From: Myxococcota bacterium
GTDB lineage: Bacteria > Myxococcota > XYA12-FULL-58-9 > JASMKV01
Direction: 5' to 3'
Assembly (NCBI GenBank): GCA_030749035.1
Contig: JASMKV010000262.1
Location: 1-48,076 of the forward strand
Length of the DNA stretch: 48,076 nucleotides
The notes under the pieces are model-generated. The model worked only from the letters and a program-made list of their open reading frames with translations, did no database searches and had not been told where the DNA came from. A program made the translations under genes and the position numbers. This document shows, piece after piece, positions 3,317 through 48,076 of the stretch; positions within the stretch are counted from its first letter, which is position 1; the number at the start of each line of letters is the position of its first letter.

Positions 3317-3318
3317 GA

Positions 3319-5352: not shown

Positions 5353-5591
5353 GGTCTTGTTCCCTTATTCTTTGATAACCTTTTATGCCGCAGGTGATTC
5401 TCTGCAAAACACCATCGGCCAACTCTAAGTGCAAGTGATTGTTTAGGATCTCTCGCTGCCAGAGTCAAGGGAAGGAGGCTCTGGAGAAGAATGAATTACA
5501 CTAAAATTGTGCATGGTTTTGTGGGCTTGATGTAGGGCATGTTTTGGGAAAAATAATTTCATTTTGGTCAGACTTGGGCTAGATCGAGTGC

Positions 5592-6002
5592 ATGGCAGAG
5601 ACTATTTTTAAGAAGATTATTGCGCGGGAAATTCCTGCAGACATTGTTTACGAGGATGACGATGTCCTGGCGTTTTTGGATATTAATCCCCTTTCAAAGG
5701 GCCATACACTGGTGATCCCCAAGGAGCCGGCAGAGACTCTCGATCAACTCTCAGCTGATGCGGCAGCGGCCGTGGGGCGTGTTTTACCGCGTGTGGCTAA
5801 AGCCGTTTTGCGTGCCACAGGCGCCAAAGATTTCAATGTGTTGCAGAATAATGGTACAGCGGCGCATCAGGCGGTGTTGCATGTGCATTTTCATATTATC
5901 CCCAGAGCAGGAAAGGATGGTTTGGGGATTGGCTGGCCAACACAAAGGTTAGAGCCACACGAGGCTAAGCTTCTGGCACAGCAGATTAAGAGTCATTTAT
6001 AG
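5592..6002 (+). CDS. hinT: HIT-family nucleotide hydrolase (HinT-like)
   Basis: Small cytoplasmic purine-nucleoside phosphoramidase of the histidine triad family, 136 residues, which is normal length. The triad HVHFHII is at H97, H99 and H101; H99 is the expected nucleophile. DINPLSKGHTLVIPK (30-44) and the FNVLQNNGTAAHQ segment are typical of the family. The physiological substrate is not clear from the sequence. It is divergent from nuoL and convergent with obgE: its TAG stop overlaps the obgE stop by 6 nt, leaving no room for a terminator. The ribosome site is weak. Confidence 0.93.
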   Translation: MAETIFKKIIAREIPADIVYEDDDVLAFLDINPLSKGHTLVIPKEPAETLDQLSADAAAAVGRVLPRVAKAVLRATGAKDFNVLQNNGTAAHQAVLHVHFHIIPRAGKDGLGIGWPTQRLEPHEAKLLAQQIKSHL

Positions 6003-7052
6003 CGGTGCCGCGGCGGGGATCTTATCCTCAGGATCGGCCTCTTTGCTTTGCTGTAGCGCGTGCCCCAGATGCTTGACCAAGTTGTCGATGCCCACCCCTG
6101 AAGCCGCAGAAATCGCGAAAAAGGGCAGATTTTTGTCTTTGGCGTAGGCGGCCACTTCGGCTTCATAGGCTTGTACGAAGTCGAGATCCATGCGGTTTAA
6201 CACCAGGGTTCGCGGCACTTGTGCCAATTTGGGGTTGTGCTTTTGTATTTCCATCTCAATGGCTTCAAAATCAGGTAGAGGCTCTCGTTCGTCTAAATCC
6301 GGTTCAACTGTAATCAGATGCACAATATGTTTGACGCGCTCGACATGGCGTAGAAATTGTGTGCCCAAACCGGTGCCTTGGTGGGCGCCGACAACGAGGC
6401 CTGGAACATCGGCGACGACAAAGTGTTCGTGCAGACCAAAATGGACCACGCCTAAGTTGGGCACCAAAGTGGTAAAGGGGTAATCTGCAATTTTGGGTCT
6501 GGCTGCGGAGATTTTCGAGATAAGCAGTGATTTACCCACATTTGGGAAACCAATCAGACCCACATCAGCCAGCAATTTAAGTTCAAGACGAATTTCCAGC
6601 TCTTCGCCAGGTTCGCCAGGTTGTGAGATACGCGGTGCCTTATGTGTAGAGCTTTTAAAGTGTAAATTTCCTTTGCCGCCGCGTCCACCGTTGGCGACGA
6701 TAAAAGACATACCATCTGCATGCAGATCGGCTAAGTTTTCATTCGTTTCCGCATTGATGATCACCGTACCCACTGGGACCTTTACAATTTTATCGTCGGC
6801 ATTTTTACCCGATTTTTGTCGGCCTTCACCGGGGCTGCCATTTCTTGCCATTTGTCGGGGGTGGTAACGATAATCCAATAATGTTGAAAGTGAAGAATCG
6901 GCTTTTAAAATAACAGAGCCACCATCACCGCCGTTGCCGCCATCAGGCCCGCCGCGGGGGACATTGGCTTCTCGACGAAAAGAGACACAGCCCGCACCAC
7001 CTTTACCGGAGCGGGCGTAGATTTTAGCAATATCTACAAATTTATAGCCCAA
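5997..7052 (-). CDS. obgE: Obg family GTPase
   Basis: Ribosome-associated GTPase needed for late 50S assembly. The N-terminal Obg fold is glycine-rich (VSFRREANVPRGGPDGGNGG, about 24-43), and the G domain begins at about residue 160. The P-loop reads GFPNVGKSLLIS: the GKS is intact, but the following Thr/Ser of the family is Leu. G4 is NRMD and G5 is ISAAS. The length of 351 is normal. The only start that keeps the conserved KFVD N-terminus is a TTG at 7052, with no clear Shine-Dalgarno, suggesting low or coupled translation after rpmA, which ends 11 nt upstream. Order rplU-rpmA-obgE is the common bacterial arrangement. Confidence 0.95.
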   Translation of the reverse strand: MGYKFVDIAKIYARSGKGGAGCVSFRREANVPRGGPDGGNGGDGGSVILKADSSLSTLLDYRYHPRQMARNGSPGEGRQKSGKNADDKIVKVPVGTVIINAETNENLADLHADGMSFIVANGGRGGKGNLHFKSSTHKAPRISQPGEPGEELEIRLELKLLADVGLIGFPNVGKSLLISKISAARPKIADYPFTTLVPNLGVVHFGLHEHFVVADVPGLVVGAHQGTGLGTQFLRHVERVKHIVHLITVEPDLDEREPLPDFEAIEMEIQKHNPKLAQVPRTLVLNRMDLDFVQAYEAEVAAYAKDKNLPFFAISAASGVGIDNLVKHLGHALQQSKEADPEDKIPAAAPL

Positions 7053-7063
7053 TGTATTGTGAT

Positions 7064-7321
7064 TTAAGAGGCGACGGGTGCAACTGCTGCAGTCGTTTTG
7101 CCGCGTTTTTGTTGGTAGCTCACACGACCGTCAATTTTAGCGAAGAGTGTAAAGTCTTTGCCTTGGCCAACATTGGTTCCAGGCCAGATTTTATTACCAA
7201 CCTGTCGAACCAGAATGTTACCCGCATTCACAACCATGCCATCTGATCTTTTCACACCACGATATTTTGGATTTGAATCGCGACCGTTACGGGTTGAGCC
7301 CTGTCCTTTTTTGTGTGCCAT
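7064..7321 (-). CDS. rpmA: 50S ribosomal protein L27
   Basis: Ribosomal protein whose N-terminus reaches the peptidyl-transferase centre. The 85-residue product begins [16 protein letters not shown] and continues [20 protein letters not shown], the standard L27 signature. There is no Firmicutes-type N-terminal prepeptide. A GGGG ribosome site lies in the last codons of rplU, 3 nt upstream, so the two are co-translated. The C-terminus is slightly alanine/valine-rich but of ordinary length. Confidence 0.98.
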
Positions 7322-7324
7322 TTT

Positions 7325-7636
7325 TTACCCCGTTATTTCGATGATTTCAATTTCAGTGTAGGGTTGACGATGTCCGATGGTTTTGTGAAAGCCCTTACGA
7401 CGCTTCTTTTTAAACACATCAATTTTAGCATGCTTATCATGGGCGAGTATTTTTGCACTTACACTGGCACCCTCGACAAGAGGTTGACCAATTTTGGGCG
7501 TCTCTTCGCCGCCAATCATGAGAACATCATCAAGAGTTAAGGTTGTGCCAACTTCACCGGATAACGTATCGACTTTAAGCTTATCGCCCTTGCTCACCCG
7601 GTGCTGTTTGCCACTGTTTCGAATTACTGCATACAT
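7325..7636 (-). CDS. rplU: 50S ribosomal protein L21
   Basis: Ribosomal large-subunit protein, 103 residues, with typical start MYAVIRNSGKQHRVSKGDKL and C-terminal KKRRKGFHKTIGHRQPYTEIEI. It is the first gene of rplU-rpmA-obgE. The upstream 144 nt are non-coding and hold a good -35 box. A purine block (GGGGGGATAAAG) stands before the ATG. The leader is long enough for feedback regulation, but I see no motif that proves it. Confidence 0.98.
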   Translation of the reverse strand: MYAVIRNSGKQHRVSKGDKLKVDTLSGEVGTTLTLDDVLMIGGEETPKIGQPLVEGASVSAKILAHDKHAKIDVFKKKRRKGFHKTIGHRQPYTEIEIIEITG

Positions 7637-7683
7637 GTCTTTATCCCCCCGACTCTAGTCTAGGCTCGGAATTTTAGAGGCTG

Positions 7684-7713
7684 CTCTTACGAGAAAATCA
7701 ACAGGGTTGTCAA
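7684..7713 (-). promoter_or_regulatory. Probable sigma-70 promoter of rplU-rpmA-obgE
   Basis: On the minus strand a perfect -35 hexamer TTGACA (7713-7708) is followed after 18 nt by TAAGAG (7689-7684), a poor -10 match. It would start transcription about 40 nt upstream of rplU. The call rests mainly on the exact -35 and on the position. Confidence 0.45.
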
Positions 7714-7780
7714 GCCGATAGCACTCTTGTCTGCATTTTCCCTTTGGAAACCTGATCTTATCCGGGTTTTCTGCTCAAAT

Positions 7781-8143
7781 TTAACCTTTACGACAGGGAA
7801 CGCCGTGAGATTGGAGAAATGCAGCCACTTTTTGCTTCTGCGCATCGCTCATTTCAACCAGCGATAGGGCTAAACCAGGAATACGGTCAAAAAAGTTGTC
7901 TGGATCGTACTCAATCGTACGCACAACTTTCGCTTTAATTTCAAAGGGTAATTGCTCTTCTTCGCTCACATCGGGCATCAGCGTGACGACTGTTTCGGCG
8001 CTAAGTTCATGGTGGGTTTCAATAAAAAGCCCAGTCTCCGAGACATCGATAACACTGCCTGACCAAAATCCGTCACCCGTATCATAGATCATACTCAGAC
8101 CGTTGACATGATATCGTGGTGCTCTGTCTGTGTGCCCTGCCAT
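7781..8143 (-). CDS. PilZ-domain protein
   Basis: Single-domain PilZ protein of 120 residues. The second c-di-GMP-binding motif is clear (DVSETG, about 33-38, fitting D/N-x-S-x-x-G), as is the closing strand GLALSLVEMS. The first motif is incomplete: only RAPR (residues 7-10) is present where RxxxR is expected, with Asp at the first position. It may therefore bind c-di-GMP weakly or act as a protein-interaction module. It stands alone between rplU and kdsD on the minus strand. Candidate outputs in the window are the type IV pilus and MglA, but no link is shown by the sequence. Confidence 0.82.
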   Translation of the reverse strand: MAGHTDRAPRYHVNGLSMIYDTGDGFWSGSVIDVSETGLFIETHHELSAETVVTLMPDVSEEEQLPFEIKAKVVRTIEYDPDNFFDRIPGLALSLVEMSDAQKQKVAAFLQSHGVPCRKG

Positions 8144-8214
8144 TGTTATACACTCCTGAACGCTATTTAACGGTTATTGGTCGAAGATACAACACCCCAA
8201 GTATGAAATTTCAA

Positions 8215-8234
8215 GCAGCCTTATTTTACGCTGC
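8215..8234 (-). terminator. Weak hairpin downstream of kdsD
   Basis: GCAGC and GCTGC arms (8215-8219, 8230-8234) form a 5-bp stem with a 10-nt loop just after the kdsD stop, followed on the minus strand by TTGAAATTT. It is short, so this is only a possible terminator separating kdsD from the PilZ gene. Confidence 0.3.
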
Positions 8235-8249
8235 GTCCAATGTCATAGT

Positions 8250-9269
8250 CTAGCGAATAACCAAAAGATCTTGAATATCTAAGAGTCCAACGGGCCGATT
8301 CTTGTTGTCCACGACGATCACTTGATCAATTTTGTTCTCACGCATCATATGTATCGTGTCCGCAACAAGTTCATTCTCGCGAAGCGTTTTAGGATGCAGA
8401 TGCATAAATTGTTCAATGGGCTGCTGCATATCCAGCTGATTGTCTTGTGCGATCAAGCGCCGCAAATCCCCATCGGTAAACAAGCCGACCAAGACTCCAT
8501 CTGTATCAACCACGGAAGTGGCGCCGGGGCGCCCCTGTGTATGGGTCATGGTATCGAGCGCCTCAGCGAGTGTGATCTTACTGAAAACAATAGGATTTTC
8601 TTCGCCCGTTCGCATGATTTCACGAACCTCAATGAGTTTCTTGCCGAGGCTGCCCCCGGGATGAAAACAGGCATATTCTTGACGACCAAAGCCGCGTAAA
8701 TTGAATAGGCACATTGCCAACGCATCACCCAAAACCATGGAGACTGTTGTGCTGGCTGTAGGCACAAGGCCCATCGGACATGCTTCGGCGACAGGTCCGA
8801 TGCTTAGGGTGATGGTGGCATGTTGCGCCAGGCTTGATTCGGCATCTCCAGTCATGGCGATAAGTGGCACCCCTTGTTCCTTAAGGGGTTGAACGATTTG
8901 CAGTATTTCAGCGGATTCACCACTGTTAGAGAGTGCCAACACGACATCATCGTTGGTGATGCGGCCAAGATCGCCATGCACCATATCTCCAGCGTGGACA
9001 TAAAGTGATGGTGTGCCGGTCGAGGCCAGAGTTGCCGATATCTTTTGCCCAACCAATCCACTTTTACCCATACCGGTGACCACGACATGTCCTTTAGATT
9101 GCAGTATGAGCTCAATCGCTTGGATGAAATTGCCGTTGATGTGGTTGCCTAGAGCTTGAACGGCTCGGCTTTCAACTTCGATAATCTGTCGGGCCTCTTC
9201 GAGAATGTCATCAGCGGCAAAAAGTTTGGGCTTTGCATTCGGGTCGGCTATCTGCTTCGAGCTCGTCAT
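8250..9269 (-). CDS. kdsD: Arabinose-5-phosphate isomerase, KdsD/KpsF/GutQ family
   Basis: Converts ribulose-5-phosphate to arabinose-5-phosphate, the first step of Kdo synthesis for lipopolysaccharide. An SIS sugar-isomerase domain comes first, with TGMGKSGLVGQKISATLASTGTP, HGDLGRI and LSNSGES. A pair of CBS domains follows, ending DQVIVVDNKNRPVGLLDIQDLL. The frame can be extended to a TTG at 9314, but the extra 15 residues (WRRFKRVARS) are not family-like, so the ATG at 9269 is preferred. That gives 339 residues, close to the family norm of about 330. The gene is divergent from the lipid kinase across 384 nt of non-coding DNA. Confidence 0.93.
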   Translation of the reverse strand: MTSSKQIADPNAKPKLFAADDILEEARQIIEVESRAVQALGNHINGNFIQAIELILQSKGHVVVTGMGKSGLVGQKISATLASTGTPSLYVHAGDMVHGDLGRITNDDVVLALSNSGESAEILQIVQPLKEQGVPLIAMTGDAESSLAQHATITLSIGPVAEACPMGLVPTASTTVSMVLGDALAMCLFNLRGFGRQEYACFHPGGSLGKKLIEVREIMRTGEENPIVFSKITLAEALDTMTHTQGRPGATSVVDTDGVLVGLFTDGDLRRLIAQDNQLDMQQPIEQFMHLHPKTLRENELVADTIHMMRENKIDQVIVVDNKNRPVGLLDIQDLLVIR

Positions 9270-9403
9270 GATGGGGCCGCTTCTAGCAACTCGTTTAAAT
9301 CTTCGCCAGTCCAAAATGTTGAAAATGTGCTTTAGATCGACACAAACAAGGTTAAATTAAATAAAAACATTAGGTTAAGGATCATTATTGGACATCAAGT
9401 CTT

Positions 9404-9535
9404 CCGGATTGGCGTTTTGGAGTGAACCCTTGTTTCCTGACTAATCCGGTATTGGGTTGATTCGTGTGTGTAAATAAAACCCAGAGAGTGGCCAAGATCG
9501 CTCTTAAGCATTTAAAATGCAAGAGCTATTTCTTT
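9404..9535 (+). other. Non-coding divergent region with possible structured RNA
   Basis: The 384 nt between kdsD and the lipid kinase (9270-9653) have no convincing gene. On the plus strand CCGGATT (9404-9410) can pair with AATCCGG (9443-9449). AACCC inside that loop (9425-9429) can pair with GGGTT outside it (9454-9458), which would be a pseudoknot. The same GGGTT can instead pair with AACCC at 9478-9482. A terminator hairpin follows at 9500. The layout resembles a small RNA or an attenuated leader, but this is inference from pairing alone. The CGTATTCG octamer occurs twice between 9565 and 9635. Confidence 0.35.
9500..9535 (+). terminator. Strong intrinsic terminator with no gene upstream
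   Basis: GCTCTT (9500-9505) pairs with AAGAGC (9521-9526), and GCATTT (9508-9513) pairs with AAATGC (9515-9520). This makes a 12-bp stem with an AA bulge and almost no loop as written; in practice the inner A-T pairs would open. The tail 9527-9535 is TATTTCTTT. The U-rich tail is on the plus-strand side only, so it should end a plus-strand transcript begun within 9270-9500, ahead of the lipid kinase. Confidence 0.6.
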
Positions 9536-9653
9536 AAGCCGTCTCGTTAGTGGCTCTTCAGGGCAAAAGTCGTATTCGGGGCTAGCCGAAACAAAGCCCT
9601 TAATGTTAAGGTAGCCGTATTCGTATAGGCCCTGCCAGAATAAGAGGAGTATC

Positions 9654-10793
9654 ATGTTAACTTCTGTTCCAGAGCATGATTCGACGACGAAAAATGCGCG
9701 CGCGTTGGAGTTGCCGGTACAGGTGGCCAGTCCAGAGCGTGTGGCCATCTTGCTCAATCGCAATGCCCGGCGTGTGAGCGATCGTTTGGCACGTACCCTG
9801 GAGCGTGTGGTCGGCCCAGAGAATGTCTTTTATTCGCGTAATTTGGAGGAGGCGGAAGCTTTTTCCCGTGAAATTGTCCAGCGCGGTTACGGCACAGTCG
9901 TTTGTGGTGGGGGTGATGGGACTTTGGTTCAGGGCATTAATCTCATTCAGAATTATGTGCACTCTGCCAATGCTTGGCGCGTGGATCGGTACGAGCGTAC
10001 GAATGAAAAGCAGACTCTCTTGGCGACGCCACGCTTTGCTTTTTTGCGTTTGGGCACCGGTAATGCGATTAGTAAACTGGTCGGCGCGACTGATCCAGTC
10101 AATGATTTGAAGCGCATTGTTGATTTTGTGCCGGGCAGAACCCATCATATGCCGTTGATTGAAAGTGCCGGCGAACGATTCTTTTTTGCCGGCATGGGCT
10201 ATGATTCGATTCTTTTGAACGATTATAATTGGCTAAAGCAACACACACACAATCGCTTGATTAAACCTTTTCTGCATACGGTTGGGGGATATTTTGCCGC
10301 TCTTTTTATGCGGACTTTACCCAATTGGTGGCTTGGTCGTGCTGGCCGTTTTGAAGCGAAGGTGATTTCGCGCAAAGAAGCCTACTATGTCGATCCCCGA
10401 CGTGGTGATTGCATTGAGTATATTGCGCCAGGCAGTGTGTTGTTTGAGGGACCGGCCACACTTCTTTCGCTGGGTACCTGCCCATTTTATGGTTATGGCC
10501 TCAAGATTTTTCCTTTTGCACGCATGATGTCGGGCAAGATGCATTTGCGCATTGGCATGCTGGATCCACTTCGGGTCTTGGTGAATTTACCGAGTCTATG
10601 GAAAGGCGCTTATCGACATCCCAAATTGGTGCAGGACTTTCTTGTTGAAGATATTAGTGTGGAGCTCGGCAGTCCTTATCCTTATCAGCACTCGGGTGAC
10701 GCGCAGGGTATGCGTGATCAAGTCGACTTTAAGATTAGCGATGAAATGCTACGCTTGGTTGACCTTTATCCACCGCGAAGAACAAGCTATTGA
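9654..10793 (+). CDS. Diacylglycerol kinase-type lipid kinase
   Basis: Protein of 379 residues with the DAGK catalytic fold: LLNRNARRVSDRLARTLERV (about 33-52), the nucleotide loop CGGGDGTLVQGINLI, and LRLGTGNAISKLVGA. This family phosphorylates diacylglycerol, ceramide or related lipids using ATP. The exact substrate cannot be read from the sequence. The C-terminal half is longer than in the 300-residue YegS/DgkB proteins and ends DMYPPRRTSY-like in a basic tail (VDLYPPRRTSY). The ATG has an AGAGGAG ribosome site. The downstream penicillin-binding protein starts 35 nt later, so the two may form an envelope-related operon. Confidence 0.88.
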   Translation: MLTSVPEHDSTTKNARALELPVQVASPERVAILLNRNARRVSDRLARTLERVVGPENVFYSRNLEEAEAFSREIVQRGYGTVVCGGGDGTLVQGINLIQNYVHSANAWRVDRYERTNEKQTLLATPRFAFLRLGTGNAISKLVGATDPVNDLKRIVDFVPGRTHHMPLIESAGERFFFAGMGYDSILLNDYNWLKQHTHNRLIKPFLHTVGGYFAALFMRTLPNWWLGRAGRFEAKVISRKEAYYVDPRRGDCIEYIAPGSVLFEGPATLLSLGTCPFYGYGLKIFPFARMMSGKMHLRIGMLDPLRVLVNLPSLWKGAYRHPKLVQDFLVEDISVELGSPYPYQHSGDAQGMRDQVDFKISDEMLRLVDLYPPRRTSY

Positions 10794-10828
10794 TGCACTG
10801 AGCCGCCGAGGGCATTGAAGAGGCAAGC

Positions 10829-13327
10829 GTGAAAAAACTTTGGCAAAATTATATGGGCAGGTTTGTATTGGGCACACTGGTCTTGGGTGTGGTCTGCGCC
10901 ATTTCTTTGGTTGTTGTTTATAATGAACTGACGGCCAATTTGCCCACGATTGCCCAGTTGGCTGAGTATGACCCGCCACAAAGCACACTCGTTTATTCCG
11001 ATGAAGGGCAATTGATTGGTCGCTTTGAAAAAGAGTTTCGCCGCCTTGTTGCATTTGAAAAGATACCTCAGCATTTGATCCATGCATTTTTAGCGGCAGA
11101 AGATGCCGATTTTTTTAGCCATGAAGGATTGGATTACTGGGGCATTTTGCGGGCTGCTTTGAAGAACCTTAGACCTGGTGCGCATCTTCAGGGCGCAAGC
11201 ACCATTACACAGCAAATTGTAAAAACGATGATTGTGGGTACGGAGCGTTCTTATAAGCGCAAGCTAAGAGAAGCGATTTTGGCCAGGCGTTTAGAGCAAA
11301 GCCTTACGAAAGAACAAATTTTATATATTTATCTGAATCAAATTTATTTTGGCTCGGGGGCTTATGGTGTTGAGGCTGCGGCAAAAATCTATTTTGATAA
11401 AAACGTGACACAGCTTTCGGTTGGCGAAGCCGCTTATTTGGCAGCAATCCCTAAAAACCCAAGTCGCTATACGCTGATCAAAGATCCTGCCGCGGCAAAA
11501 GAAAGACAAACTTATGTTCTTAAACAAATGTTTGCCCATGGCTGGTTGACCCAGTCTCTTATGGAGAAGTCGATTGGCAAGGCGGTTCCGGCGCCATCTT
11601 CGCTTGATCAAGGATTTGTCGTGTCAAAGCATTATGTCGAACATGTGCGACGGATTTTGGCTGCGGACTTTTCGGAGAAAGAGCTTTTCGAAGGTGGCAT
11701 GAAGATTTATACAGGACTGCGCTTAAAGGCGCAAAAGGAAGCATTTCGTGCGCTAAGGCAAGGGCTTGAGCAGATCGCTCGCACACAGGGGTTTCAGGGG
11801 GCCAGGCAACGCCTTGAGGCAGATGTGTTTCGTGAATATTTAGAGTTGGTGCATCAAGATTTGGAAAAAAAATCGATTTTGTTTGCACGTTTACATGCGT
11901 CACCACAAAGTCAAACAACCTATATTTGGAATTTTGAAAAGCTTGATGAACTTGATGGTTTAAGTTTAGCTGATTTGAAAAGCACGATGCAGGTTTTACG
12001 ACTTGAGCCAGGGTTGCAAGTCAAAGTTCCTATCACGAAAGTGAATTCAATAGAGGACCGTATCGAATTTGATTTAGGAGAATGTGTGGGGCATGTTTCG
12101 CTTGACGAGATGAAATGGGCCCGGCCATTTTCCCCTCAAGGGTGGACGCCAGCACCAAAAGACCTCAGCGAAATTGTTCGCCGCGGTGACTTTTTAAAGG
12201 TTGAGATTCTTGAAAAGGGAATTGAAAGCGCTGGTGATAAGAATTGCCAGCTGGCGGTCAAAGTGATTCCAGAACCGGTGGTTCAAGGTGCCTTTGTGGT
12301 GCTCGATCCGCATACTTTTATGGTCAATGCGATGATTGGTGGATATGAGGGTTCGGGGCGCGGCTTTAACCGGGTGACACAAGCCTTACGGCAACCGGGC
12401 TCGGCGTTTAAGCCCATTGTGTACGCGACAGCTTTAGCGCAAGGCTTGATTCACCAAGCAAGTCTTTGTGCCGATACGCCGATTGTTGTTCGTGATGTTG
12501 TGAGTGGAGAAGTTTGGAAACCGCAAAATTATGAGACCGGTGAATTTTCAGGGAATATAACGCAGAGGCTGGCCCTGGCATGGTCTAAGAATACTTGTGC
12601 CGTTAAGCTCTTTGAAAAATTAGGCGGTGAAGAGGTTCTCAAAATGGCAGAGAGTTTGGGTGTAAAGAGCACTTTACCAGATTCTTTGAGTTTGGCTCTG
12701 GGCTCGGGGGAGATGTCTCCGCTCGAATTGGCAAAGGTTTACGCGACTTTTGCCTCAGGAGGATTTAATACAGATCCTATTTTTGTTCGTAAAATTACAG
12801 ATAAAAAAGGAAAAATTGTTTTAGACAAAAAGCGCACTTTATCACAAATGTTGCCGCCACAACTTGCTTACGTGCTGACCGACATGCTCAAGGCAGTTTT
12901 TGTGCAAGGCACTGCAAAAAAATACAGCAGTCAAAAACACGTGTTTGCTGGCAAGACGGGGACATCTGACGAGTCGCGCGACGCTTGGTTTGTGGGCTAT
13001 TCACCTGAATTGGTCGCTCTAAGCTGGGTGGGTTTTGATGATAATCAATCCTTAGGTCGCGCCACCGGTGGCTCTCACGCTTTACCCATTTGGTCCGATT
13101 TTATGGAATCGATGTTGGACAATGAACCGCAAAGGGATTTTGCACAGCCTCCAGATATTGTTTTCTTGAGTGTTGATCGGGTCAATGGAAGCCTGCAGGA
13201 AACATCGCAAAGTGTGTCGATGGCATTTCAGAAGGACAATTTGCCGCGTGAACAGATGCAAGATCACGACAGCATTTTTATTGCGGATGATGAAGAAGAA
13301 AATGCATTGTTCTACGAACGACCTTAG
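10829..13327 (+). CDS. mrcA: Class A penicillin-binding protein (bifunctional glycosyltransferase/transpeptidase)
   Basis: Peptidoglycan polymerase and cross-linker anchored in the inner membrane by a helix at about 11-31. The GT51 domain has the catalytic E91 in EDADFFSHEG, QGASTITQQIVK (121-132), RKLREAILARRLE and YLNQIYFGSGAYGVEAAA. A linker domain of about 180 residues precedes the transpeptidase, where S525-AFK, S586-K-N and K709-TGT are the three active-site motifs. At 832 residues it is PBP1A-like in length and layout. The start is a GTG with GAAGAGG upstream. The C-terminus ends in an acidic stretch (DDEEENALF). Its TAG overlaps the convergent tsaB stop by 4 nt. Confidence 0.96.
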   Translation: MKKLWQNYMGRFVLGTLVLGVVCAISLVVVYNELTANLPTIAQLAEYDPPQSTLVYSDEGQLIGRFEKEFRRLVAFEKIPQHLIHAFLAAEDADFFSHEGLDYWGILRAALKNLRPGAHLQGASTITQQIVKTMIVGTERSYKRKLREAILARRLEQSLTKEQILYIYLNQIYFGSGAYGVEAAAKIYFDKNVTQLSVGEAAYLAAIPKNPSRYTLIKDPAAAKERQTYVLKQMFAHGWLTQSLMEKSIGKAVPAPSSLDQGFVVSKHYVEHVRRILAADFSEKELFEGGMKIYTGLRLKAQKEAFRALRQGLEQIARTQGFQGARQRLEADVFREYLELVHQDLEKKSILFARLHASPQSQTTYIWNFEKLDELDGLSLADLKSTMQVLRLEPGLQVKVPITKVNSIEDRIEFDLGECVGHVSLDEMKWARPFSPQGWTPAPKDLSEIVRRGDFLKVEILEKGIESAGDKNCQLAVKVIPEPVVQGAFVVLDPHTFMVNAMIGGYEGSGRGFNRVTQALRQPGSAFKPIVYATALAQGLIHQASLCADTPIVVRDVVSGEVWKPQNYETGEFSGNITQRLALAWSKNTCAVKLFEKLGGEEVLKMAESLGVKSTLPDSLSLALGSGEMSPLELAKVYATFASGGFNTDPIFVRKITDKKGKIVLDKKRTLSQMLPPQLAYVLTDMLKAVFVQGTAKKYSSQKHVFAGKTGTSDESRDAWFVGYSPELVALSWVGFDDNQSLGRATGGSHALPIWSDFMESMLDNEPQRDFAQPPDIVFLSVDRVNGSLQETSQSVSMAFQKDNLPREQMQDHDSIFIADDEEENALFYERP

Positions 13328-39445: not shown

Positions 39446-40558
39446 ATGGAAGCTGCATCTGATACATTAAAAATGATCATCAATAAGATCTGCGAGCCGG
39501 AGCCATTTTTCATATTGATGGTGCTTTGGTGTTTTGCTTCGGTGATTTGGGCGGATAAATGGGTGAAGCCGAAAATTGCCTTTACCATGATGGGGGCATT
39601 TTTCCTTCTTTACCTTTTCTCGCTGACGGATTCTAATTTTTATTCGATTGCGACCAAAGGTGATAACATTCCGATTATCGCGATGCTCTTTATGTCGGTT
39701 TATTTTACCTGGCTTGGCTTTTGGCGGGGTGTGGAAAATGATAAGCGCAAAGCCGAAGGTCGCCCGATGATCGAGGAAGAGGGCAAGGAAGTTAAGGTCC
39801 TGGTTTGGCCCCATTTGATTTACATCGAATTTATTGTGGGCATTTTTTGCACGGCCCTTCTCGTTGTTTGGTCGATTGTGATTATGGCGCCTTTAGAGGA
39901 GCCCGCATCGAGTGCGGCGACACCCAACCCATCGAAAGCACCTTGGTACTTTTTGGGTTTACAAGAGATGCTGGTTTATTTTGACCCATGGATGGCCGGT
40001 GTTGTTGCGCCGAGTTTGATTATTGTTGGCTTGATGGCGATTCCCTATTTGGACAAAAATCCTAAAGGCAACGGTTATTACACAATTAAAGAGCGCTGGT
40101 TTGCGATTTCGTTTTTTAATTTTGGTTATCTGGTTTTGTGGATGGCTTTGATTTTTCTTGGAACCGTGATGCGTGGTCCAAACTGGAACTTCTTTGGTCC
40201 CTTTGATTACTGGGATGTACATAAGCAACCGGTTTTGAATAACTTAAACCTTTCAGAGCTTTTCTTTATTAAGACTTTGGATATGGGATTGCCTGAGCAT
40301 TGGCTTAAGCGCGAAGCGTTGGGGATTGCTCTTACGGTTATTTACCTTTTTGTTCTTCCCGTTCTGTTTGACAAAGTCCCGTTTTTTAAAATCGGTGAGT
40401 TTTTTAAGAAGATGCGTATCGAGATGGGGGCAGTACGTTATTACACATTTATCTTTTTGTTTTTAACGATGATGTCATTGCCCATCAAGATGGTTTTACG
40501 TTGGACCGTGAACTTGAAATATGTCGTGGCAATACCGGAATACTTTTTTAACATTTAG
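39446..40558 (+). CDS. Cytochrome b, C-terminal (subunit IV-like) protein, extended
   Basis: Completes the quinol-oxidation site of the split cytochrome b. PNPSKAPWYFLGLQEMLVYFDPW (160-182) corresponds to the PEWY region; the APWYFLGLQE form is typical of this clade. At 370 residues it is more than twice the size of b6f subunit IV. The first 115 residues add three hydrophobic helices (about 21-37, 44-61, 75-93), and more helices follow at the C-terminus. It begins 40 nt after the b6 gene with GAAGGA upstream. Confidence 0.92.
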   Translation: MEAASDTLKMIINKICEPEPFFILMVLWCFASVIWADKWVKPKIAFTMMGAFFLLYLFSLTDSNFYSIATKGDNIPIIAMLFMSVYFTWLGFWRGVENDKRKAEGRPMIEEEGKEVKVLVWPHLIYIEFIVGIFCTALLVVWSIVIMAPLEEPASSAATPNPSKAPWYFLGLQEMLVYFDPWMAGVVAPSLIIVGLMAIPYLDKNPKGNGYYTIKERWFAISFFNFGYLVLWMALIFLGTVMRGPNWNFFGPFDYWDVHKQPVLNNLNLSELFFIKTLDMGLPEHWLKREALGIALTVIYLFVLPVLFDKVPFFKIGEFFKKMRIEMGAVRYYTFIFLFLTMMSLPIKMVLRWTVNLKYVVAIPEYFFNI

Positions 40559-40576
40559 AGTGGTGAGGACAGCAAA

Positions 40577-43500
40577 GTGGCACGTACCAATCGACCAGAT
40601 GAAGCATATCACATACCAACCCTGAATTTTTGGTTTGCGATCTCGGCCATCGTGCTGATGATCACGAGTGTATGGATGGTGTGGTTTGATTATGACCGCT
40701 CCTGGAAAAATGTGCAGCGGGATTTTCAACGTATTGAGCGTGATCGGCTTGAATACGAAAAAGCACAAGCACAAGAAGAGATTAAGAAAGAAGAATTTGC
40801 GAAATTAGAGGCGACCTTAGAAAAGGCCGAGGCCAATGTGGTGGCCCAGCAAGAAGATATTGAAGCAAGCCGGATTGAACTCAAGACGCAAAGCGACGTG
40901 TTGTATTTGGCCAAGCAGAACTACCAGTTCAAGAAGGCGGACTTAGCGGACAAGCGCTACGCTTTAGAACATGATTTAGAGTACGCCAAAACTCCAGTCG
41001 AAGTGAAGAAGCTTAAAGACGCTTTTGCTGTAGAGGATCAGGCGGTCTTGGATTTAGAGAAAATATTTAAACTCGAAGAAGAAAAACTCTATTTTGCACA
41101 GACCAAGCTCGACAAATTGCTGGCGGCCAATAAAGCAGCTCAGGCTGCTTTGGATGCTGCGCAAAAAGAGGTGATTGCCTACAATAAGCGTCTTGATAAA
41201 ATTGCACCCAACTTTTTTAATGATGTTTTTCGGGATGCGCCGCTCCTTGATTTTATGGCGCCCTCATTGCGCATTAAGCAGCGGGTTATTCCTGATATTC
41301 GTGACGATTATAACTTTGCCACGGTACAAAAAGAAGACCGTTGTGAAACTTGTCATTTAGGTATTGCCAATAAGAGTTATGAGACAGACGCGCAAACCGG
41401 GCGATTCTTGAGCGAATCAACGCGTGTGGTTTTTGAACATGAGGTCATCGACTATACAAAAGATTTTATTGAGGAAGCCTTAAGTGGTGATGATGCTAAA
41501 TATGCTTTAGAAGAAATCGTTACGCTGCAGGAAAAACCTGAGCTGAGCATCGAAGCCTGGGCAGAAGAAAATATTGAAGATGAAGGTCGCCGTGGCGAGC
41601 TTATGGAATATTTGGCGGATGCCCGCGAAGATTTGCGCAAGGAAACGGCACAATTTAAGGCCCACCCTAATCTGGATTTATTTTTAACGTCCAAAAGTCC
41701 ACATCCGGTAGAAACCTATGGTTGTACGGTTTGTCATGAGGGCCGAGGTCATGCGGTGGATTTTGATCGTGTCTATCACACACCTGAAAATGCGGAAGAA
41801 GCTGCGCGCTGGGCCGAAGATTATAATTGGCATGTGCCTCATTATTGGGACTGGCCGCAATTACCCGCAAAGTACGCCGAAGCCTCTTGTGCAAAATGTC
41901 ATGATGCACAAGTCAAGGTTGCTGGTGCGGAAAAATACAACAAAGGTCGCGAATTGGTGGAAAATTCGGGTTGCTTTGGTTGTCATAAAATTGATGGTTT
42001 AACAAATGTCTTACGGAAGGTGGGGCCAGGTTTAGATAAGTATCCATCGAAAGTTGCCGATAAGGATTTTGCTTTTGCATGGATTTGGAACCCTAAACAT
42101 TTTCGGCCGGACACGAAAATGCCGCAATTTTTTGATCTGGAAAACAATTCAGCGCCTGAGTTCAAGAGTCTGAACGAGCAGGAAGTTCGGGGGATCGTGG
42201 CTTATCTTTATAAGAACAGCGATTCTTATACTCCAGAAGCTTTAAATATGTCAGGCAACCCACAGAGCGGCAAGCAGCTCTTTGAGGAAGTGGGGTGTTT
42301 GGCTTGTCACTCGATGAATGATGCGAAGCAAAGCGTGGCTGACCACGGCCCAGATCTTTCAGGCATTGGTTCAAAATTAAGTCAAGAATGGATGTATTCA
42401 TGGATGCGCAATCCAAAAGGCTATTTTGCCAAGACGCACATGCCTTCTTTACGTTTAAGCAAGAATGAAGCGGCGGATATTTCGGCTTATCTGATCTCCT
42501 TAAAGAAAAAAGATTGGAACGTTGCAAAGATGCCGACGCGGGATGAGGCTTTGCAGGAAGAGCTCTTGCGCATCGCGCTGGGCAACTCAATGCGGCGAAC
42601 TGAATTGAATGACTATCTTGGCGGACTTGATGCGGAGGAGCGCGAGCTTCAGGTTGGTGAAAAGGCGATTGGAAAATATGGCTGTGCTGGGTGCCATGAC
42701 ATCAAGGGCTTTGAAAATGCAGGCCCCATTGGGACCGAGCTTACTACTTGGGGCAGCAAGCTGCTTAACAAGTTAGATTTTGCCATGATGCACGGGGAGA
42801 TTCCGCATACGAAAATTGCTTGGTTTCAAGAAAAAGTGGATGACCCGCGGGTTTATGATCGTGGCAAGGTTAAAGCTTTTCCCGATCTTTTGAAGATGCC
42901 AAGATTTGGTTTCAATGAAGATGAAATTGAAGTCTTAACAACCTATATTTTGTCGCGTGTGAAAAATGATATTTCCGATTTGCGTAAGCGGGCTGTCGAT
43001 CCTGAGCTTGCGGCGATTCAGGAGGGTCGAACAATGGCCAGGCAGCTCAACTGCTATGGCTGCCATTATTTCGATGACGAAGGTGGAGACTTTGCGCTCT
43101 ACTGGACAGTCAACGATCAAGGCCAAGGGGAATTTACTTCATCGAGTGGTCGAGCTCATTTTGATTATTTGGAGCATGTGCCAGGGCCAACCAGGGGACA
43201 TGTACCGCCACTTCTTTTAGATCAAGGCAACAAGACAGAACCACAATGGCTCTTTTCTTTCTTGAAGGATCCGATCATGTTGCGTCCGCAGTTAAAGATG
43301 CGCATGCCGACTTTTGGTTTTGATGATGCAGAGGCCAATACCGTCATCAAAATGTTTGCGGGCATTGAAGGACACGATCTTGGGGAAATTTCATCTTACC
43401 AGCCTGATGTGAGTTTGGCTTTAACAGGCCATGAACTTTTCCAGCGCGGTAAGTGTACCCAGTGTCATCTTTTTACCGATAAAGTGGTTTCTCAGGAAAA

Positions 43501-43771
43501 CGTTCCCAAAACGGTTGTGGCGCCAAATCTGAAACTTTCCGCGCAGCGTTTGCAGGCGCAGTGGATTGTGCGTTGGCTCGAAGATCCACAAAGCATTATG
43601 CCCGGAGCGAATATGCCGAATTATTTCGACACGGAAAACAATTTTACGGTGCTCGATCAAGACGCCAAACTGCTGGGTGGAGATATGCATAAAGGCATGC
43701 AGGCTTTAAGAGATTATCTTAAGCTTTCGGGTTCATCTAAGGGCGGTGGAGGCGAGCGCGCTGGGCTCTAG
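40577..43771 (+). CDS. Octahaem cytochrome c with membrane anchor and coiled coil
   Basis: A 1064-residue exported protein closing the bc operon. One helix (about 16-37) anchors it. A long heptad-rich coiled coil (about 43-205) follows. Eight CxxCH haem sites are at 256-260, 383-387, 438-442, 466-470, 574-578, 703-707, 826-830 and 960-964. Repeated segments of the type WMRNPKGYFAKTHMPSLRLSKNEAADISAYL, WNPKHFRPDTKMPQF and FLKDPIMLRPQLKMRMPTFGF show that it is built from several class I cytochrome c domains, each with a Met ligand in KMP, HMP or RMP. No cytochrome c1 gene is present, so this protein probably takes electrons from the Rieske centre. The start is GTG with GAGGA. Confidence 0.93.
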   Translation: MARTNRPDEAYHIPTLNFWFAISAIVLMITSVWMVWFDYDRSWKNVQRDFQRIERDRLEYEKAQAQEEIKKEEFAKLEATLEKAEANVVAQQEDIEASRIELKTQSDVLYLAKQNYQFKKADLADKRYALEHDLEYAKTPVEVKKLKDAFAVEDQAVLDLEKIFKLEEEKLYFAQTKLDKLLAANKAAQAALDAAQKEVIAYNKRLDKIAPNFFNDVFRDAPLLDFMAPSLRIKQRVIPDIRDDYNFATVQKEDRCETCHLGIANKSYETDAQTGRFLSESTRVVFEHEVIDYTKDFIEEALSGDDAKYALEEIVTLQEKPELSIEAWAEENIEDEGRRGELMEYLADAREDLRKETAQFKAHPNLDLFLTSKSPHPVETYGCTVCHEGRGHAVDFDRVYHTPENAEEAARWAEDYNWHVPHYWDWPQLPAKYAEASCAKCHDAQVKVAGAEKYNKGRELVENSGCFGCHKIDGLTNVLRKVGPGLDKYPSKVADKDFAFAWIWNPKHFRPDTKMPQFFDLENNSAPEFKSLNEQEVRGIVAYLYKNSDSYTPEALNMSGNPQSGKQLFEEVGCLACHSMNDAKQSVADHGPDLSGIGSKLSQEWMYSWMRNPKGYFAKTHMPSLRLSKNEAADISAYLISLKKKDWNVAKMPTRDEALQEELLRIALGNSMRRTELNDYLGGLDAEERELQVGEKAIGKYGCAGCHDIKGFENAGPIGTELTTWGSKLLNKLDFAMMHGEIPHTKIAWFQEKVDDPRVYDRGKVKAFPDLLKMPRFGFNEDEIEVLTTYILSRVKNDISDLRKRAVDPELAAIQEGRTMARQLNCYGCHYFDDEGGDFALYWTVNDQGQGEFTSSSGRAHFDYLEHVPGPTRGHVPPLLLDQGNKTEPQWLFSFLKDPIMLRPQLKMRMPTFGFDDAEANTVIKMFAGIEGHDLGEISSYQPDVSLALTGHELFQRGKCTQCHLFTDKVVSQENVPKTVVAPNLKLSAQRLQAQWIVRWLEDPQSIMPGANMPNYFDTENNFTVLDQDAKLLGGDMHKGMQALRDYLKLSGSSKGGGGERAGL

Positions 43772-43930: not shown

Positions 43931-44374
43931 GTGAGGCCATCATTGCAGGTATTTGAACACCACAAATCGAGGTTACATTGTTCAGCATTTACGCTTGTTG
44001 AATTAATGGTCACGCTTGGTTTTTTATCCTTTGCGCTTTTAGGGGTGACGAGCCTGCAGATCTACGCCATGCGTATGGTTCAGACCTCGGCGGATATTAC
44101 CATCGCGTCGAATTTAATCTCGGCAACGGTAGAGGAGTTGTGGTTAACCGATTTTGATTCGGTGACTGACGTTGCGGCTGTTTATTATCGTCAAAATGGT
44201 GCGGCCATCACCGAGAGTGACGCCTCGTCCCAAAAATTTGCCGTCACCGTAAGCTTAGAAACCGATAACGGCAATTCGAAAGACATTAAGGTGACCGCAA
44301 CGTGGAAATCCCATCCAGGGGCCTCGGCGGAAAAGAATGTTGAAACGTATACCAGGATTTTTAATAGGCCATAG
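43931..44374 (+). CDS. pilV: Type IV pilus minor pilin, PilV-like
   Basis: A 147-residue prepilin-like protein with a 19-residue leader and the class III signal AFTLVELMVTLGFLSFALLGV. The Glu at mature position 5 is present (E24). The residue before the cleavage site is Ala19 where Gly is nearly invariant, so processing may be slow or depend on context. The rest fits PilV (AMRMVQTSADITIASNLISATVEELW). The start is a GTG. It is first in pilV-pilW-pilX-pilY1; a FimU/GspH-type minor pilin is not seen upstream. Confidence 0.85.
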   Translation: MRPSLQVFEHHKSRLHCSAFTLVELMVTLGFLSFALLGVTSLQIYAMRMVQTSADITIASNLISATVEELWLTDFDSVTDVAAVYYRQNGAAITESDASSQKFAVTVSLETDNGNSKDIKVTATWKSHPGASAEKNVETYTRIFNRP

Positions 44375-44377
44375 CCC

Positions 44378-45607
44378 ATGCAGTTGATGAGAAAAAAATT
44401 ACGAGCACAGGAAAAGGGTTTCACGCTTGTTGAGTTGATGTTGACGGTGGGTTTAGGCTCGATTGTCGCCGGAGCCATTGTCGGCACCATGGTGACGCAG
44501 CAACAGGGTTATCAAACGGCGCTTGAATTTACCGAAGCGCAACAAAATGTTCGTGCCGCTTTAGATGTCATCAATTATTATGCACGGCAGGCGGGTAGAG
44601 GCTTTGTTGTTGCCGGAAATGGCACGGGGTCTTCGGCGGTGACACTTGCGGGGTCACCCTTTATTGGTAACTGTTTTTTAGGCAAAAGTCATAGTGGCAA
44701 GGGTTTGGGAGCAGCTCAGGATAATTGTGACAATATTGATACGGATGTGGATCGATTACGAATTGCGTATGCGGATGCGGACAGAATATACGATGATGCA
44801 GCGTACGATTTGGCTATCGATACCGCGGAAGGTACAATTCAAATATGCTGTAATGGATCTGGCTCAGAATTGTGTCACGACAGCACCAGTGTTGGGGCCT
44901 TACATTCGTCCAGTGAAACAATTTCTTCAAGTGCGCCTGTTTACGGGCTGATTTCAGGAACCTGCTCCGATGGTAATTTGGCCAATGATTTGGTCCTTTT
45001 GACGAAGGTAAGCAATTGTAGCAATCTTACCAGTGGTTATAATGCCTATGTTTACAATTCGGACCTGTCCGGCCAATCAAGCAGCACGACGCTTTCTTGC
45101 ACCTATGCAACAGGCGCATTCAAGCTTTCTCGTGCTGAGGTGGTGGATTTTTTTGTTGATAAAACCACAGATTCTTTGCACCCAACGCTTAAAATGAATC
45201 GACAAAGCGCTGTAGGAGAAAGCAGCGCACAGATCATTGCATATGATGTTGAAGATATTCAGTTTCAATATGGTATCGATACCAGCAAAAATCCTGATGG
45301 TATTCTAGGCGATGGTGGTACCCCGATTTGGTGTGATGATCTTTATATTACAGCCGATTCGGTGGGCGATGATGATTGTGCAGGACTCGGAACTTTCGGT
45401 ACAACACTGGCTTACCAGCAGCGCGCCATTGCGTTGCGACTGGCAGTGATTGTGCGAACGCGTCATCAGCGTTCAAGGTTGATGAAGCATGATGTGAGTG
45501 CTTATGATGGAGCGACCTATCCTTTAAGCAGCGAGAACAACGTTCGAGGTCATTATCGTCGCTGGATTTTTCGTTCAACCATAGGTTTAAGGAACAACGC
45601 CTTGTGA
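44378..45607 (+). CDS. pilW: Type IV pilus minor pilin, PilW-like
   Basis: A 409-residue prepilin with cleavage site G14|FTLVELMLTVGLGSIVAGAIVG and E19 at mature position 5. QQNVRAALDVINYYARQAGRGF follows the stalk helix and is typical of PilW. It is longer than the 270-340 common in PilW. The globular part is Ser/Asp/Cys-rich (for example CCNGSGSELCHDS), suggesting disulphides. It begins 3 nt after pilV, and its TGA overlaps the pilX GTG. Confidence 0.9.
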   Translation: MQLMRKKLRAQEKGFTLVELMLTVGLGSIVAGAIVGTMVTQQQGYQTALEFTEAQQNVRAALDVINYYARQAGRGFVVAGNGTGSSAVTLAGSPFIGNCFLGKSHSGKGLGAAQDNCDNIDTDVDRLRIAYADADRIYDDAAYDLAIDTAEGTIQICCNGSGSELCHDSTSVGALHSSSETISSSAPVYGLISGTCSDGNLANDLVLLTKVSNCSNLTSGYNAYVYNSDLSGQSSSTTLSCTYATGAFKLSRAEVVDFFVDKTTDSLHPTLKMNRQSAVGESSAQIIAYDVEDIQFQYGIDTSKNPDGILGDGGTPIWCDDLYITADSVGDDDCAGLGTFGTTLAYQQRAIALRLAVIVRTRHQRSRLMKHDVSAYDGATYPLSSENNVRGHYRRWIFRSTIGLRNNAL

Positions 45608-46134
45608 AAATTTTTCTTAAAAACAGTGAAGTTGGATTTTCTTTAATCATGGCGGTGTCCGTTGTTGCACTTTTGATGATGCTCGGCTTGGTGGTGATGC
45701 AGTCCGTGAATTCCGACGTGCGGGTTGCGGGCAATAGCCGGAATACGCAGAACATGATACAATTGGCCGAGGCGGGGATTGCTCAAGGCTTGGATGTGTT
45801 ACGGGCTTCTCCCTACAATATTGATGACCAAAGCACGCCTTCAACTCAGACAAGTGTCATTAACAGCGCCATTGGCTCTGGCAGTAGCTTAAGCGTGGTG
45901 GGCTCATCGGATACAGAATTGGGGAATTGTGTTGAAAAAGGTTGGCGGCAATTGGTGGGCAGTGACACTTGGACCGCTTATGGTAACGGTTTTATTCGGG
46001 TTATGATGTACGATAACATTGAAAGTGATAACGATCGCACGACCGATACCGATCAAACCTTTTTGGTCCGGGCTTTAGCAAGCGATGGTTATGATGGACG
46101 TCGCTGTATTGAAATCGAAGTCAAGGTGGATTAG
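45604..46134 (+). CDS. pilX: Type IV pilus minor pilin, PilX-like
   Basis: A 176-residue protein with signal G11|FSLIMAVSVVALLMMLGLVVMQ, then SRNTQNMIQLAEAGIAQGLDVL, matching PilX. As is usual for PilX, Glu is absent at mature position 5 (Met here). The GTG start overlaps the pilW stop as GTGA. PilX-type minor pilins form the tip complex with PilV, PilW and PilY1. Confidence 0.87.
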   Translation: MKIFLKNSEVGFSLIMAVSVVALLMMLGLVVMQSVNSDVRVAGNSRNTQNMIQLAEAGIAQGLDVLRASPYNIDDQSTPSTQTSVINSAIGSGSSLSVVGSSDTELGNCVEKGWRQLVGSDTWTAYGNGFIRVMMYDNIESDNDRTTDTDQTFLVRALASDGYDGRRCIEIEVKVD

Positions 46135-46141
46135 TTACGTT

Positions 46142-48076
46142 ATGGCTCTTCACACGCACATATGCCGGGCCCTGCTTATAGCCCTTGTGGGATTTTTCAG
46201 TGCTCAGAGGCAAGTGCGTGCAACCTGTAATGTGAGCTCCTCTGCGACCTTAACCGAAAACTTCAGCAAGACAACCAATTACGATCCAGACAACTCGTCG
46301 GTGAGTGGATGGTCAAGCAGCAGTGGGCAGGTGAGCTTGAATGGGCGTGGCGGAGAGTTTTCACTGGCCCTGGGTGAAAATTATACCGGTGTGATTTATG
46401 CCATGACCGGTGGTGATTATAATTTAGACAGCCGTTGTTTGGATGATTTCGTCATGCTGAGTCGTAACGCCAGCGGCGCCTGTAAGCTTCTCTTTGGGCG
46501 CAATAAGGGCGGAACGACCCATGAAGGATTTGAAGTTTCTTCCACGACTCTGGCTTCTTTGGATTCAGCCATTTGTGATCGCAATGCAGCACCGGTTTTA
46601 TTGACCGGTAGGCTGAACAACGATTCTTTTCCTGATGTGGTTCTTATGTACACGAGTGATGCCCAAGGGGCAGGATCTTTGAGCACCAAGGTTTTTATTA
46701 ATGACGCGAACGCCGGAAGTGGCCAATCAAGTGGCACTTGTTCTTCGGATTTGGGTGATTCCGCTTTTAAACAACCACCTGAGCCAACTTTTAGTGCACA
46801 GTCCGACAGTTTAACCTATCCATCGAGTGTGTATACGCATTGGGCCAGTGATTATGCTGTGCTCAAGGATTGGGATGGCGATGGTTATGATGATATTTTG
46901 GTTTTAAGTGGCAGCAATACGGTCAATTTACTTAAGCTCTTTATCACAAAGATCAGTTCTGGTGCTTTTAATGGTGTTGAAAGTGGACAAACGGTTATTT
47001 CTGATGTGGACGTGTATACACCGATTGCCAATGGCTCGAATGATGCAACCTCGTTAGATGGGGCGTGCATCTCTGCGGACAGTTCGGGAAGTTATTCGCG
47101 CGGTCCATCTCTGCTTTTGACCGGTGATTTTGATGGTGATGGTGATAACGACATTATTGTGGGGAGTGTTTCGCAGGCCGGGTTGAAATATTTTCGTAAC
47201 GATGGTGGACTTATGGGGCCTTTTGTTCAACAGGCCGATATTGCTTTTAGTGTCGGTGGTGCAGCACATGGCGCCGTTGCTGATTTTGATCTGGATGGCG
47301 ATCTTGATTTTGTTGTCATGCGGGATGACGAAAATTGTTATGGAGGAACAACAACCAACAATATTTATTTATTTCGTAATCAGGGTGGAGGTGATTCTTT
47401 TGCGCAGGAGATTCTCTACACTGGTTTGGGCGACACGAACCATATGCTTTCCGGCCACCTCTATCAGGCCGATGGAAGTGGTGCCATCGATGTTTATATG
47501 GGCATCAACAGCGGTTACTCTGTTCTCTTAAAGAATGGTCTTCAATCTAAAGTTGCCAATAAGGTTGGTGTAGCGCAAAGCACCAATATTTTAGCCGCCG
47601 TAAAAGAGACCTTTGGTGTGGTGAGCATGACGATTAGCAGCTTTACCCGTAAAACGCCCGTCGGTACGTCTGTTGCACTCTATTTGACGAACAATGGGGG
47701 GCGTTCCTGGGAAGAAGTGTCGGCAGTTGGTTTATATTCTTTGCCCTATACGCACGCTTTTAAATCTCACGGTATGGATCTGCGTTTCAAAGTTGTTCTA
47801 CGTACAACCGACGGCAAGGTTACACCTACTGTGTATGATATAGCTGGGACCTATCAGTATACAGGGGCATTTCAATATTCACGCTCGAAATTGACCACCG
47901 GTACGGTGACGGTAAATAAAAAATCCACAGAGTTGCTATTTGAGGCTTCCTATACCTATCCAGACTATGTTGGCTCCTTGAAAGCCTACGACCTATCTGG
48001 AATGCCTGTCGGGGCATCCATCAACAGTCTTAACAGTATAAATTCTAAAGGTGTTCTTAAGGCGACTTGGGACGCA
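46142..48076 (+). CDS. pilY1: PilY1-like tip protein with FG-GAP repeats (partial, C-terminus off the window)
   Basis: The frame is open from the ATG at 46142 to the window end (645 codons). A signal peptide ends at about ...QRQVRA. Three Asp-rich calcium-type loops of the FG-GAP/VCBS kind are at 243-251 (DWDGDGYDD), 329-337 (DFDGDGDND) and 381-389 (DFDLDGDLD), which suggests a beta-propeller. The last residues, GSLKAYDLSG...LKATWDA (about 615-645), match the start of the PilY1 C-terminal propeller, and the gene follows pilX as pilY1 does. Canonical PilY1 has a von Willebrand A domain in the N-terminal part; I see none. It should be the adhesin or assembly factor at the pilus tip. Confidence 0.85.
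   Translation, partial: MALHTHICRALLIALVGFFSAQRQVRATCNVSSSATLTENFSKTTNYDPDNSSVSGWSSSSGQVSLNGRGGEFSLALGENYTGVIYAMTGGDYNLDSRCLDDFVMLSRNASGACKLLFGRNKGGTTHEGFEVSSTTLASLDSAICDRNAAPVLLTGRLNNDSFPDVVLMYTSDAQGAGSLSTKVFINDANAGSGQSSGTCSSDLGDSAFKQPPEPTFSAQSDSLTYPSSVYTHWASDYAVLKDWDGDGYDDILVLSGSNTVNLLKLFITKISSGAFNGVESGQTVISDVDVYTPIANGSNDATSLDGACISADSSGSYSRGPSLLLTGDFDGDGDNDIIVGSVSQAGLKYFRNDGGLMGPFVQQADIAFSVGGAAHGAVADFDLDGDLDFVVMRDDENCYGGTTTNNIYLFRNQGGGDSFAQEILYTGLGDTNHMLSGHLYQADGSGAIDVYMGINSGYSVLLKNGLQSKVANKVGVAQSTNILAAVKETFGVVSMTISSFTRKTPVGTSVALYLTNNGGRSWEEVSAVGLYSLPYTHAFKSHGMDLRFKVVLRTTDGKVTPTVYDIAGTYQYTGAFQYSRSKLTTGTVTVNKKSTELLFEASYTYPDYVGSLKAYDLSGMPVGASINSLNSINSKGVLKATWDA

Follow-up and report, generated by a model that had tools for sequence, protein, structure and literature searches.

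The pilY1 gene that runs off the end of the 48,076-nucleotide stretch analysed here (the window, which is the whole of contig C262 of genome G000) likely encodes the tip protein of a type IVa pilus, with a distal FG-GAP propeller of calcium-type blades instead of a von Willebrand A (vWA) or DUF4114 domain. In the current view of PilY1, its N-terminal domain lies outermost on type IVa pili and determines which targets they grip, and FG-GAP PilY1 is probably a new, clade-level third N-terminal tip class of a known protein. Such a class would mean that a pilus tip can acquire a new head built on the fold of animal integrins and fungal lectins.

The pilV-pilW-pilX-pilY1 array occupies the last 4 kb of the contig and closes it, with pilY1 last and truncated at the contig end (Table 1); the G000 assembly comprises 3.97 Mb in 527 contigs. 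PilY1 belongs to a minor pilin operon (pilV, pilW, pilX, fimU/fimT), and the preceding genes have counterparts in other genomes of the same order. The PilV-like gene resembles the gene at the same position in G002 (E 5.7e-19) and G001 (2.9e-6), PilW matches its relatives in G001 (7e-42), G002 (7e-38) and G003 (2e-21), and the PilX-like protein matches those in G002 (8e-17) and G001 (2e-15). An alternative ATG for the pilY1 frame lies at 46085 and would overlap pilX. A low-confidence model places a helix at residues 4-15 of the protein. Elsewhere in the window, positions 39446-43771 contain two cytochrome genes: one encodes a cytochrome b C-terminal part, and the next a 1064-residue protein in which four stretches match cytochrome c.

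Table 1. Coordinates of features in the window and in contig C518 of the same genome.
Feature	Location	Strand	Basis
PilV-like minor pilin	43931..44374	+	N-methylation motif weak, 0.0046, under cut-off
PilW minor pilin	44378..45607	+	PF16074, 45.0 bits, cut-off 26
PilX-like minor pilin	45604..46134	+	PilX_N, 4e-5, 23.9 bits, slightly under cut-off 25.5
pilY1, N-terminal 645 residues	46142..48076	+	ATG at 46142, frame open up to contig end at 48076
Probable signal peptide, residues 1-27	46142..46222	+	Translation judged by eye
FG-GAP domain, modelled as beta-propeller	46223..47611	+	Pfam, model, structure matches, profile match (E 1.2e-15)
Degenerate FG-GAP loop, GRLNNDSFPDV	46607..46639	+	Aligns with GDFDGDGDADL of G002
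Calcium-type loop 1, DWDGDGYDD, residue 243	46868..46894	+	Strict DxDxDGxxD
Calcium-type loop 2, DFDGDGDND, residue 329	47126..47152	+	Strict DxDxDGxxD
Calcium-type loop 3, DFDLDGDLD, residue 381	47282..47308	+	Strict DxDxDGxxD
Linker domain and PilY1 propeller lead-in, residues 471-645	47552..48076	+	Profile match, GxLxAYDL element
NF033662 repeats in PilY1 propeller	L002 (C518) 2409-5933	-	15 matched stretches
SycD/LcrH-type chaperone and companion gene	L002 (C518) 1265-1753 and 463-1185	-	Adjoin pilY1

The truncated product matches Pfam FG-GAP_3 (PF13517; 3.9e-11, 43.8 bits, cut-off 26.9) and Pfam FG-GAP (33.6 bits, cut-off 22.1). The three DxDxDGxxD loops of FG-GAP type that a sequence-only reading of this DNA had reported in the N-terminal region are confirmed, and in 2000 shuffles of the window's 645 residues three strict loops never arose and two arose once. 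More degenerate blades are visible on alignment with G002 and G001. FG-GAP exceeded the family cut-off in the window and in G001-G003, and the FG-GAP region of L048, a named Myxococcales MAG, matched at 4.2e-14. When motifs were counted in the PilY1 open reading frames examined, two or more broad loops occurred only in the window, L048, G001, G002 and G003, with G003 PilY1 having only two calcium-type loops; G049 (L182) joins them with two loops if the strict motif is applied, and one of these, at residue 1173, falls inside the propeller. We built a profile from four FG-GAP PilY1 N-regions and compared it by hhalign with eight generic FG-GAP segments and with eight PilY1 N-regions classed as vWA-type by their DxSxSM motif. 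The profile matched the generic FG-GAP segments at 98.6% (E 1.2e-15) over residues 85-418, and we therefore assign these residues to FG-GAP.

Residues 28-490 were modelled from an alignment of the window protein with 26 segments from related loci, giving a mean pLDDT of 62.5 and a pTM of 0.66 with most blades at 70-91, while a model from a two-row alignment reached a pLDDT of 31.5. A Foldseek search with the model placed CRTAC1 first (7e-7), with the PVL lectin, KICSTOR propellers and integrins lower. By VIA-align, the GlcNAc lectins PAL, PVL and AAL2 matched the model with Z scores of 17.3-17.5 across 332-334 residues, and the generic propellers BBS9 and LGI1 scored similarly or slightly higher over fewer residues. 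Because the underlying alignment consists mostly of FG-GAP proteins and so favours a propeller fold, we take the model to be consistent with a beta-propeller and not as proof of one. With no model used, a four-sequence profile matched CRTAC1 in the PDB (1.8e-5) and, weakly, integrin alpha-IIb (0.017); the window protein alone gave no PDB match by phmmer. The earlier phrase "integrin-like propeller" describes the fold, and GlcNAc and fucose lectins match the model at least as well as integrins do.

A vWA domain in this region would contradict the FG-GAP assignment, and none was found by Pfam, motif or profile comparison. Pfam returned no VWA match in the window or in G001-G003, and the FG-GAP PilY1 profile matched the eight vWA-type N-regions at 6.5% by hhalign; a vWA domain hidden by divergence is ruled out by these three approaches. 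The window does contain one literal DxSxS (DSSGS, residues 313-317, with 0.74 expected in shuffles), so that the sequence-only reading was wrong to the letter in calling the motif absent. This DSSGS sits between two FG-GAP loops with no hydrophobic strand before it, however, and none of G001, G002 and L048 conserves it. DUF4114 was not found by Pfam in the window, G001, G002 or G003.

The end of the window resembles the start of the PilY1 propeller, as had been proposed, with the lead-in matching by hhalign and by profile and the propeller itself lying beyond the window. Against the vWA-type PilY1 N-regions, the hhalign alignment is confined to LFEASYTYPDYVGSLKAYDL, which pairs with the WxGxL element (a stretch of 21 columns preceding the propeller), and we therefore regard this lead-in element as common to FG-GAP and vWA PilY1s. 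A profile of residues 471-645 finds G002, G001 and L048 and, weakly, the equivalent place in several other PilY1s. Judged from sequence and gene order, contig C518 of G000 very probably holds the remainder of the gene, because it encodes a PilY1 C-terminus (GDLEGRLWKID, LRWREI ending; 27% to G002 and 26% to G001) followed by a GspH-type pseudopilin, a SycD-like chaperone and orfA in an order that G001-G003 share. The PF05567 match of C518 is marginal by itself (21.7 bits) and exceeds its cut-off only with neighbouring stretches (28.2 bits), and the calcium site DxDxDGxxD of the C-terminal propeller reads DLDKDGDTD in C518 and is degenerate in G001. C518 begins within a repeat array, and assemblies commonly break at such arrays. 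No other PilY1 was detected in G000, where the C518 protein used as a query returned C518 alone, and a search of the G000 contigs for the middle of the gene with a stretch of G002 gave a best E of 0.32. About 250 propeller residues and an unspecified number of repeats are missing between C262 and C518. Because the gene is cut and its middle is in no contig, the join of C262 and C518 rests on synteny and on the single PilY1 of the genome. A PilY1 propeller is thus present on the syntenic contig C518, and the complete genes of G001-G003 encode one as well.

These complete genes, of 1602 (G001), 1559 (G002) and 1581 (G003) codons, each encode FG-GAP repeats and a PF05567 propeller, both above cut-off, within a single frame, and the window PilY1 is 34% identical to that of G002 over 26-658. 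Each follows pilW, with pilV-like and pilX-like genes also in G001 and G002, and downstream of each come genes for a pseudopilin and a SycD-like chaperone and then one more gene. The C-terminal propellers of G002 and G001 carry an insert of ~200 residues, bounded by LWE(F/Y)(S/T)D and G(Q/E)TWS.P. In G002 this insert is similar to a portion of a GH31 alpha-glucosidase structure (4.3e-4), with a weak similarity to a carbohydrate-binding module (0.13) besides. At the corresponding place C518 has 15 matched NF033662 acidic double-disulfide repeats (234.7 bits, 3.3e-71), a region whose 560 residues include 79 Cys, 186 Asp/Glu and 22 Lys/Arg. The C-terminal propeller of G003 lacks an insert of this kind. 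From the inserts and the FG-GAP head together, this lineage therefore elaborates its tip protein at two places. The insert resembling a carbohydrate-binding module in G002 and its diverged counterpart in G001 lie in PilY1 genes at loci L024 (about 2604-7280) and L025 (4363-9168).

One PilY1 gene was detected by PF05567 in each of the eight genomes of the order. Four of these genes have an FG-GAP head (G000-G003) and four a vWA head (G004-G007), the vWA domains being read from the FDxS(G/N)SM motif and its surrounding pattern, with no VWA listed there by Pfam. Two PilY1 lineages that differ in their heads thus occur in one order, and at the detection limit each genome has just one of them. In a tree of C-terminal regions, made by a quick method with SH-aLRT support only and with long branches that include G003 and L048, the four FG-GAP PilY1s form one clade (97) and the four vWA PilY1s of the order another (100), far apart. 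The tree has 50 rows, comprising 42 of 43 open reading frames (G062 was dropped as cut by a contig end), the C518 part, L048 and six named PilY1s, and leaves out 20 further open reading frames of the phylum survey. With the two groups apart in the C-terminal tree, whole PilY1 lineages differ, and a recent swap of only the N-terminal part onto the vWA PilY1 of the order is unsupported.

The phylum survey covered 63 PilY1 open reading frames, a part of the matches found, and in the 60 beyond G001-G003 a Pfam scan found no FG-GAP in the N-region. The DxSxSM motif is present in 35 of the 63, none of them in G001-G003, so that vWA is not universal in PilY1, and DUF4114 was matched in 8 other PilY1s of the phylum. 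The presence of this DUF4114 class, together with the genome sizes, suggests that the phylum is Myxococcota. The proposal that FG-GAP stands in place of vWA is right about position, but the C-terminal clades point to separate lineages. A scan of named genomes returned at least 48 loci, the majority being ordinary PilY1s or FG-GAP proteins of a generic kind; among the matches listed, only L048 had both FG-GAP and PilY1 parts. These lie in one 1461-codon frame with a weak propeller match (PF05567 6.8e-5, 23.7 bits, under cut-off in a one-genome search, and missed by hmmscan at E 0.01), and the tblastn match of L048 spans residues 327-903 of G002. Among other N-regions, a vWA-type PilY1 at L119 (G006; 7403-11065, - strand) has a hexapeptide (left-handed beta-helix) insert (PF00132, 1.1e-16), and a PilY1 at L145 (G069; 6304-10551, - strand) has a SUEL-lectin-like stretch (1.9e-6, 28.6 bits, under cut-off).

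PilY1 and the minor pilins prime the pilus, with the N-terminal domain outermost, and a contact between PilY1 and PilX is predicted to hold the priming complex together (PMC13190605). By analogy, the window PilY1 would form a priming complex at the pilus tip with PilV, PilW, PilX and a FimT/FimU-like pseudopilin, in which the C-terminal propeller rests on the minor pilins while the FG-GAP head faces outward. The calcium loops would stabilise the FG-GAP fold, and the propeller would probably serve as a gripping or sensing head whose ligand, most likely a glycan or glycoprotein, belongs to a surface, a matrix or another cell; retraction would then pull the cell along or hold the partner. In G000 the second half of PilY1 appears to be lengthened by acidic double-disulfide repeats of calcium type in the C-terminal propeller. 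The FG-GAP head thus suggests a different grip on surfaces or other cells, and on the basis of the model its ligand may be a glycan at least as readily as a protein, because lectins match at least as well as integrins.

The same propeller could instead be a calcium-stiffened spacer or force sensor that keeps the loaded tip folded and reports surface contact without binding a ligand. The vWA domain of Pseudomonas PilY1 has been proposed to act as a sensor of force or surface contact, and calcium increases the mechanical stability of P. aeruginosa PilY1 (PMC13190605); several blades of the window protein have degenerate loops, which also fits a spacer. However, the closest solved FG-GAP folds include ligand binders (integrins and GlcNAc and fucose lectins), and we consider a pure spacer unlikely. 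Because the frame stops at the contig end, it might also be asked whether an FG-GAP protein and a PilY1 lead-in were joined in assembly. Three other genomes carry both parts in frame and far from contig ends, with 34% identity between the window protein and G002 over 26-658, and these complete homologues rule out a chimera for practical purposes.

The genes beside pilY1 raise a different possibility, namely that PilY1 serves a contact apparatus with the type III secretion system of the adjacent chaperone and not a motility pilus. A SycD/LcrH-type chaperone and orfA adjoin PilY1 in five of the eight genomes of the order (G000-G004); the chaperone by the C518 PilY1 matches TIGR02552 (5.9e-25, 87.6 bits, under the equivalog cut-off of 104.8), and it and its companion gene also lie by pilY1 in G001-G004 (L024, L025, L026, L117), the chaperone being 63-84% identical. 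G000 also encodes an HrcV export gate (843 bits). Neighbourhood is not function, however, and G004 has the same chaperone by a vWA PilY1 in another orientation, whereas no such chaperone was found near PilY1 in G005-G007 within the stretch examined. G000 moreover has three PilT-family ATPases over cut-off, and PilT-type ATPases point to retractile pili; a role in type III secretion seems improbable. Equally doubtful is a broader proposal in which the tip and its glycan-binding or acidic calcium-binding inserts seize cells for the type III apparatus, the whole having co-evolved as a single contact device. We favour a tip protein of a type IVa pilus with an FG-GAP head.

A 2026 survey that covers 67 myxobacterial genomes and 150 of their PilY1s describes an N-terminal vWFA domain, DUF4114 or the propeller alone, assigning vWA to classes 1.3, 1.4b and 1.5-1.7 and DUF4114 to classes 1.1 and 1.2, the DUF4114 class being restricted to Myxococcales among myxobacteria (PMC13190605). 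The terms FG-GAP and VCBS do not occur in its main text, and no paper in the literature searched reports an FG-GAP N-terminal domain on PilY1. The one paper found to mention both deals with the lone calcium blade in the C-terminal propeller of PilY1, which it already groups with integrin calcium blades (PMC3123361). With four vWA and four FG-GAP genomes, the order offers a natural comparison for the function of the tip domain.

Compared with the vWA-type PilY1/PilC proteins (PilY1 of P. aeruginosa and L. pneumophila, PilY1.3 of M. xanthus), the window class shares the C-terminal propeller with its calcium site, the lead-in GxLxAY..WDA and the minor-pilin operon, but has an FG-GAP propeller instead of a vWA domain with its MIDAS, and G000, G001 and G002 carry a large insert in the C-terminal propeller. 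PilY1.1 and PilY1.2 of Myxococcus xanthus (the DUF4114 class) are alike in having a non-vWA N-terminal domain and a pilus operon, but differ in the DUF4114 domain itself. C518 shares its repeats with NF033662 proteins, but has them inserted inside a PilY1 propeller. The propellers of integrin alpha, CRTAC1 and PVL (PF01839/PF13517) resemble the window domain in their repeated DxDxDGxxD blades and in the modelled fold, with a profile match to CRTAC1 and a weak one to integrin alpha-IIb; in contrast to them, the window domain has only three strict loops and stands at the N terminus of a pilus tip protein.
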